Source: Aliiroseovarius zhejiangensis (GTDB lineage: Bacteria > Pseudomonadota > Alphaproteobacteria > Rhodobacterales > Rhodobacteraceae). Taken from it: a DNA stretch of 64,000 nucleotides. Numbering within the stretch: the stretch's first letter is position 1; each line of letters opens with the position of its first letter. A model generated the notes under the pieces. The model was not told the DNA's origin. It searched no databases and saw only the letters and a program-made list of their open reading frames with translations. This document shows, one piece after another, positions 45,435 to 47,038 of the stretch. The translations under genes were made by a program, and so were the position numbers. The DNA lies in NCBI RefSeq assembly GCF_014656375.1, contig NZ_BNCH01000001.1, forward strand, positions 248,001 through 312,000, given 5' to 3'.

Positions 45435-47038
45435 CCTCCCAACCCGCGATACACACGCGGCAGCATCTCTGGCAGGTCCTCGGCAATCAGCCCCGGCCCA
45501 AAGGTCAACGCGCATTCCACATGCAGCGAGGCCGCCTGTTCCGCTGCTGGCTTCGGGGCAAAGCCGCGCGCCAGCAACCCGGTCATAAAGCCCGCCAGCA
45601 CGTCCCCTGACCCGGCCGTCGCCAGCCACGGGGCAGACCGTTCATAAGCTGCCGGGTTGACCGCGCACGTTCCATCCGGGTCCGCAATCACCGTATCCGG
45701 CCCTTTGAACAAGACCACACAGCCTGCCCGTGCCGCCGCCTCGCGCGTCGCGTCAACCTTCGAATAGGCCGGGCCCTTGGTGGCCGGGGCGTTCAGCTTC
45801 TCGGCAATATCCGGGAACAGCCGCGCAAACTCACCGGCATGAGGCGTCAGCACACAGTTTCCATGCAACATATCGAACAGTTCCTGCGGCGCATCGGCAT
45901 AGGCCGTCAACGCATCCGCATCCAGAACCGTTGCGCGCCCCGCCGCCAACGCCACCGGCACCAAGTCCCGCGCCCGCTCCTGCCCCAGTCCGGGGCCAAG
46001 GCACAGCGCGTTCAGCCGTGCGTCCGCCAACACCGCCTCCAACGCCTGTGCATCCCCGACCGGAGACAACATGATCGCATCCAGCCGCGCCGCGTTTTCC
46101 TGAAGCGCGCCGGGCGTGGGCGCGACGGTGACAAGCCCTGCCCCGATGCGCAGCGCCCCACGCGCAGCCAACCGTGCCGCGCCCCCCTTGCCGGATGGGC
46201 CGGAAAGGATCATGGCATGGCCGTGGGCGTACTTGTGACCATCGCCGAGTTTTCCAAGACCGCTGGGTCTATCCTGAAGCTTGACCTTCCCGATACCAGC
46301 CTGCTCACACCGTGGCGAACTGGTCTCCAGACCAATGTCTTTCACAGCCAACTTCGTGCAATACGTTTCACCATCCCCGCAAAAATGACCGATCCGTGCT
46401 TTGTGGAATGTCACTGTCAGAAAAGCCCGAACCGCACCGTAATTGGCCGACAAGGCAACACCACTGTCCATGCACAGTCCGGACGGGGCATCTATTGCCA
46501 CCATTTTTCCGAATGTCGCCCCTCGAACATACAAACTGTCAAGCGGCCGAAGCACTTTGTCCTCCGGTGACCTGGTCAAGCCTGCACCGAAAACCGCATC
46601 GACGAACAGATCACCATCCCGCTCTGCAATGCGGCCTTCGTCCCAGGGTGTAACCGCCCCCAACTCCGCCCACCGCTCATAATTCACCCGCGCATCTGGC
46701 GGTAGCCTCGACGCATCCCCATACAGAAACACCTCCACCTCCCAGCCCCGCTCTTTCAACAACCGCGCCACGACAAACCCGTCGCCACCGTTGTTCCCCG
46801 GGCCGCACAGCACCACGGCCCTGAACACCTTCCCCGTTTCTTCTGGCTCCAAATATCCCGGGGAGCACGAGGGGCTGGCCCCTCGTTCCACCCTCGCCAA
46901 TTCAGGCCATTCCTCGAAGATGGCCTCGACCACACCCCGCCCGGCCCGCTCCATCAACTCAAGCCCGGTAACCGCGCCCGACTCGATGGCCGCTTGCTCT
47001 ATCGCCCGCATTTGGGCCGCCGTCAGCAATTCCGTCAT
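45431..47038 (-). CDS. nnr: bifunctional NAD(P)H-hydrate epimerase / dehydratase with repeat-derived insert
   Basis: It repairs hydrated NADH and NADPH: the N-terminal epimerase (about 1-215) interconverts the epimers and the C-terminal ADP-dependent dehydratase (about 230-530) restores the cofactor. [17 protein letters not shown] (about residue 78) marks the first domain and [19 protein letters not shown] (about residue 490) the second. Residues about 52-70 (from [10 protein letters not shown] to EETGK) are encoded by a copy of the palindromic repeat that is intergenic elsewhere in this window. The insert lies in the loop before the nucleotide-binding strand, and the frame stays open. Confidence 0.95.
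46837..46885 (-). repeat. palindromic repeat, copy 3, translated inside nnr
   Basis: On the minus strand this reads CGAGGGGCCAGCCCCTCG (hairpin), then GCTCCCCGGGATATTT, GGAGCCAGAAGAAA. The hairpin type, the CCCGGGATATTT core and the GCCAGAAGAAA end match the copies at 2023-2091 and 6844-6902. Here it is in frame with the host gene. Confidence 0.85.

Follow-up and report, generated by a model that had tools for sequence, protein, structure and literature searches.

Can a palindromic repeat that lies between genes elsewhere in a genome become part of a protein, and how does it come to sit there? The question is raised by nnr, a gene in a stretch of 64,000 nucleotides of the Aliiroseovarius zhejiangensis genome (the whole stretch is referred to here as the window; L and G numbers are our handles for loci and genomes). 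The gene occupies 45431–47038 on the minus strand and encodes a bifunctional NAD(P)H-hydrate epimerase/dehydratase of 535 amino acids, as judged from the open reading frame, the Pfam matches (a fusion of YjeF_N, 4.8e-32, and Carb_kinase, 2.1e-45) and a match in PDB (2ax3 TM0922, 2.2e-41). An earlier note on this DNA had claimed that nnr shares a repeat with two intergenic sites, and this was borne out. In fact, GATATTTNNNGCCAGAAGAAA is matched three times without mismatch in the window, at 2071–2091 and 6881–6901 on the plus strand and at 46837–46857 on the minus strand inside nnr, the chance expectation being 0.02 (100 shuffles, up to three mismatches allowed).

Pattern search, an alignment of relatives and AlphaFold place the element in nnr at 46838–46886 on the minus strand, where it encodes residues 52–67. 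The in-frame palindromic insert of the note thus stands, and its extent of residues 52–70 is shortened; TGK (residues 68–70) lies beyond the tag, in a G-rich part in which the copies resemble one another only loosely. On the minus strand the copy consists of hairpin 1, ACGAGGGGC-CA-GCCCCTCGT (46867–46886, by a fold and hairpin check), the core GGATATTT (46851–46858, by pattern search), a variable triplet GGA (46848–46850), which completes the Leu codon TTG and begins the Glu codon GAG in frame 1, and the genome-specific tag GCCAGAAGAA (46838–46847, by genome pattern search and tag comparison). The reading frame is open through the copy with no stop, and we infer that the insert is translated. 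In the AlphaFold model (40-row alignment; mean pLDDT 85.4, pTM 0.54), residues 52–68 have pLDDT below 50 and lie between the helix 25–43 and the strand 73–78. The copy is an in-frame coding insertion, and the loop that it occupies, just ahead of the epimerase domain's first Rossmann strand, is predicted to be disordered.

We further focused on the element outside nnr. A search of the whole genome, which the note had proposed for the core, yielded many copies, 41 in all at up to two mismatches and 45 at up to three, with 0 in the reversed control. The elements share one order. Hairpin 1, of the form GGGGC-loop-GCCCC or a variant of it, comes first; another, variable hairpin frequently follows, and a C-rich stretch then leads to the constant half-site, either GGATATTT or GGAGTATTT. 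After the half-site come a triplet that varies and a tag of 10 bases. Of the two intergenic copies in the window, both on the plus strand, one spans 2023–2090 (hairpin 1 at 2023–2037, hairpin 2 at 2040–2062, core at 2070–2077, triplet GAG, tag at 2081–2090) and the other 6844–6900 (hairpin 1 at 6844–6858, hairpin 2 at 6859–6871, core at 6880–6887, triplet CTG, tag at 6891–6900); the latter (L004) is flanked by convergent genes according to a simple codon-usage gene caller. The tail had been taken as constant, but it is actually a tag that varies from genome to genome. When the 55 bases before the core were folded and set against mononucleotide shuffles, with no control region, the mean z was −1.8, and 41% of the 193 copies fell below −2; in dinucleotide shuffles, the z values of the three window copies were −1.2, −2.3 and −0.5.

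The pattern is present in 62 of 120 genomes sampled one per genus from the family, with no reversed hits; 39 of the 120 hold at least five copies and the largest count is 121. In a sample of 289 genomes from the class, eight match, namely the genome under study, G202 (a family member, with two hits) and six genomes that each gave a single hit; the reversed control gave one hit. Rfam at the gathering score left the element unmatched and found only a tRNA in the window, and one element query had no match of phage origin. Two element queries matched 3 and 29 plasmid records, two records being common to both; among these 32 rows, 29 are annotated with no gene listed under the best place and 3 are unannotated, the gene table being incomplete. 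A replication-polarity signal was set aside after a look by eye at the listing of one genome (G014).

Where these copies lie was analyzed with the same kind of gene caller for 191 copies fetched from nine genomes (for example, 20 regions of the 46 places in G005). As many as 169 are intergenic, and for the 168 with both neighbours called, the neighbours are convergent in 83, codirectional in the sense direction in 48, codirectional in the antisense direction in 32 and divergent in 5; most copies lie in intergenic DNA 3′ of genes. The other 22 fall inside a called reading frame. Four of them are nnr, where the copy is read in frame. Among the 18 others, 15 have a Pfam domain that starts downstream of the copy, so the start of the reading frame is probably over-extended, and three have no Pfam family (L153, L157 and L197). 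The note had proposed to list the copies that fall inside coding sequences; leaving these three apart, a coding site was demonstrated among the 191 copies for nnr alone.

We then have to ask whether the insert is absent from other nnr genes, and how precisely. We compiled the window gene and the best 80 of 406 loci, ranked by the insert-bearing query (the nnr set). The note had proposed to look for precise absence in relatives, and 46 of these 81 genes indeed have a spacer of only 10 residues, from the helix end WP (QP in L103) to the strand AVVLCGPG. Of the remaining 35, all with a longer spacer, 33 carry an element that can be recognised; the other two are L057, which is degenerate and lacks the core, and L116. 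Among 34 longer spacers, 28 retain a hairpin that is GC-rich and perfect over 6 bp or more. Frame 1 (PGYLxPEE) is used by 20 of the 33 inserts and frame 2 (PRDISGQKK) by 13, and the orientation is sense in all 32 whose core was found by a simple test, L081 falling outside that test. Thus, judged from these sequences and beyond what the note had claimed, the same nnr site has been occupied repeatedly among the sampled relatives in the family Rhodobacteraceae, always in sense where it was read, in two frames and usually with a tag of the host. Chance resemblance or an annotation artefact, to which we give practically no credence, is ruled out by the empty nnr sites together with the genome-wide copies. 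As to single loci, L116 (5001–7285), from a Nioella isolate, is a broken nnr gene with 231 amino acids open and an unrelated longer spacer, and the spacer of L054 (gene start 5001) holds three in-frame tandem hairpin units.

A second sample, of genera, comprised 120 genomes, 107 of them with an nnr match. The N-terminal region was taken for 70 (the 30 best matches and 40 in table order that reach the N-terminus, two starting at 72–73), of which 66 were readable and 4 were dropped with the motif missing. Among the 58 empty spacers, 46 have a length of 10, three of 8, one of 6 and one of 15, and seven were without a length. The insert was found in 8 of 25 genomes with at least five copies of the element versus 0 of 41 with fewer (Fisher test, 1.9e-4).

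Has the site been occupied once or many times? One alternative holds that there was a single old insertion, handed down vertically and by exchange of nnr alleles, with tags matched to the host by short gene conversion and with relics left in nnr after the repeat was lost elsewhere. We consider this account somewhat less likely than not. The nnr tree computed without the spacer requires at least 19 changes of state, and its strongly supported branches force at least 10 (empty versus the rest). The tree of the neighbouring gene glnA, used as a proxy of the host and covering 78 of the 81 rows, requires at least 18, and its strong branches force at least 15 (empty versus the rest), which speaks against a single event; gain and loss are not distinguished in these counts. 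The presence of two reading frames at one site and the absence of the insert from all 41 genomes of the genus sample with fewer than five copies also stand against it. The two trees conflict in places, however, as L043 adjoins the window gene in the nnr tree and is distant in that of glnA; nnr alleles thus seem to have moved, and exchange may explain part of the changes. The old insertion further accounts for the sharing of frame and hairpin within clades (six rows of the Shimia group are in frame 2, the Leisingera and pomeroyi groups in frame 1) and for the four insert-bearing hosts in which no other copy was found. It also fits the motif TGxxF after the insert, common to the window gene and L044; since these two are glnA neighbours as well, the window insert is probably common to L044 by descent.

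Is the insert under constraint as protein? Of the 23 inserts in frame 1, 21 have G as the first base of the triplet, and 22 have a Leu codon there; of the 15 in frame 2, 14 have C, giving Ser. Among 186 other copies, the triplet starts with G in 28% and with C in 23%. Frame 1 has two exceptions, AAG, with Leu retained, and CGG, which gives Phe; frame 2 has one, GTG, which gives Cys. The nnr triplet is thus restricted by the frame, which argues for translation. As the nnr rows are related, the computed probabilities are not literal; with the first sample collapsed to nine and eight events, they are 1e-5 and 2e-4. G367 and L067, which are probably one species, were counted once in both triplets and tags.

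We also compared this genome with that of L044 (G002), in which 17 of the 21 copies examined are at orthologous sites. Between orthologous copies, the core is identical at 136 of 136 positions, the tag at 169 of 170, the triplet at 27 of 51 and the next six bases at 59 of 102, and glnA 4-fold sites agree at 134 of 206 (0.65). The copies were found by core and tag, so their identity is partly ascertained and retention is the safer statement. The probability of retaining 17 of 21 is 6e-18 at a neutral identity of 0.65, 3e-7 at 0.75 and 0.16 at 0.85, the test having no force at 0.85 or above.

This retention bears on another alternative, that of a non-autonomous mobile element, of REP or MITE type, which has inserted over and over into a favoured target within nnr; every tag family would be a wave of transposition by its own transposase. 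We find it quite possible, somewhat short of an even chance. With 17 of 21 copies at orthologous sites, movement would be slow. Moreover, the Y1 transposase (PF01797) was found in 0 of 15 copy-rich genomes and 2 of 15 copy-free ones, although 3 of 16 genomes in another set match, all with copies (this genome, just over the cut-off, G005 and G039); a REP driven by RAYT is therefore unsupported. In favour of mobility, L068, L082 and L084 have flanking residues outside the element that total 10, the length of the empty spacer; several tag families coexist in one genome; and G403 holds five copies identical in both triplet (CGG) and tag (GCATGATGAA), as though from a recent amplification.

The tags deserve a closer look. 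By lineage, the tag is GCCAGAAGAA in this genome, GCAAGAGGAA in Ruegeria pomeroyi and others, GTCAGAAGAA, GACAAAAGAA and GCAAAATGAA in the genomes of L055, L083 and L059, and GAATGAGAAA in some Shimia relatives, and several genomes carry two or more. For the 25 of the 33 inserts whose hosts have other copies listed, the nnr tag equals a host tag exactly in 20 and with at most one mismatch in 22, versus a mean of 3.6 and a maximum of 12 exact matches when tag assignments were shuffled (20,000 shuffles). The misses are L062, L073 and L099 (one tag of the L099 host rests on one copy), and L080 and L114 are one base off. Six further hosts came from the genus sample: G363, G379 and G453 are exact, G342 and G408 one base off, and G403 is mismatched. 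No copy was found with either of two patterns in the insert-bearing hosts L081, L082, L100 and L109, and three or fewer in L065, L068, L084 and L097; either these genomes use other tags or their inserts are relics.

At some orthologous intergenic sites of the Shimia relatives, the hairpins are kept and the tag differs (L218 versus L228 and L257), which also weighs against insertion in waves. In seven such pairs, not all independent, the 5′ identity is 0.74–0.87, whereas the background averages 0.53, with its 95th percentile at 0.79. This percentile is surpassed by three of the seven, and two of the three share L218, so that a change of tag at standing sites is suggestive only.

The reading we prefer, and take to be probable, is a REP-like family of Rhodobacterales whose tags go with the lineage and which has come time after time to occupy a permissive loop of nnr, usually with a tag of its host and with a triplet restricted by the protein; a cognate factor and a function are presumed. 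Members of the family have one or more GC hairpins and a constant half-site, GGATATTT or GGAGTATTT, separated by a spacer of 3 bases from a tag of 10 bases that is specific to a genome or lineage. A trans-acting, tag-specific factor, binding DNA or RNA, would read the half-site and tag and maintain or spread the elements; no such factor was found. Tag families would rise and fall, and would take over standing sites or re-insert, and nnr would be used because its loop is permissive, tolerating perhaps ~15–40 extra residues. A bolder version, which we rather doubt, is a dispersed bipartite dialect signal of a new kind, with a co-evolving reader and genome-wide tag switching, whose nnr member would be kept as DNA or RNA signal and as protein at once. 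In any case, nnr offers a natural replicate experiment: in 33 of the 81 sampled genes (the window and the best 80 of 406 loci), one coding site holds an element that comes in different dialects. Two questions thereby become testable. One is what recognises short dispersed repeats, and keeps them homogeneous, in genomes where no RAYT transposase was detected; the other is how a palindrome turns into protein sequence under constraint at both levels.

Which known repeats does the family resemble? Three systems can be compared. First, the Rickettsia palindromic elements (RPEs) are, in the passages of PMC2229807 and PMC3733652 on them, repeats of 105–146 bp that are found both between genes and in frame inside protein genes. 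In this behaviour the Rhodobacterales element is alike, as the note had supposed, given the in-frame insertions in nnr. RPEs were observed in 19 reading frames according to the part of PMC2229807 concerned, which also describes a translated and active gmk product with an RPE; the present element, in contrast, has many copies (191 examined in nine genomes) but nnr as its one demonstrated coding site, and it is further set apart by its constant half-site, its spacer of 3 bases and its genome-specific tag. Second, REPs (GTAG and CGTC super-families, RAYT) lie mostly 3′ of genes, between reading frames that are convergent or unidirectional, with intragenic cases, as stated in sections of PMC3733652. 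The mostly 3′ placement of our 168 intergenic copies is alike, and the different REPs of two Xanthomonas species at about the same recB site, reported in the same sections, are a precedent for a shared site. Unlike REPs, GTAG or CGTC stands at the foot of hairpin 1 in 0 of 157 copies (those of 193 with hairpin 1 found), the 15 copy-rich genomes have no Y1 (RAYT) transposase match, though 3 of 16 in the other set do, and the tags of 10 bases are lineage-specific. Third, the DUS of Neisseriaceae has species dialects, two of which can coexist, and inverted pairs near terminators, with thousands of copies per genome (2257 and 7153 are quoted), in the portions of PMC3630211 that treat it. In sequence pattern, a short signal with genome-wide copies that vary between species as dialects is common to both, but our element reaches at most 121 copies (120 genomes) and is preceded by hairpins. 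The element therefore combines features of RPE, REP and DUS, and fails a defining feature of each. In agreement with the note, the open-licence PMC papers searched name no such repeat for Rhodobacterales.

Some minor features were also observed. A minor subfamily with the tag ACAAGAAAAA is present in this genome (G000 C1:724668, C2:18862, C2:113463, C4:223092 and C4:223134), and the genome of L046, also Aliiroseovarius, has this tag in all 10 copies listed. An alternative 5′ module ends in CTCCGGCGG before GGATATTT in L010, L016, L018, L028 and L038. A second palindrome, GGCTCAC-NNN-GTGAGCC or close to it, lies just 5′ of several elements (window 2004–2020; L002, L007, L009, L034 and L039; L167, L171, L172 and L175), and elements also occur as tail-to-tail pairs, tens to ~150 bp apart (G000 C4:186977/187017 and other pairs). 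Near nnr, a tRNA gene is located at 44579–44660 of the window on the minus strand.
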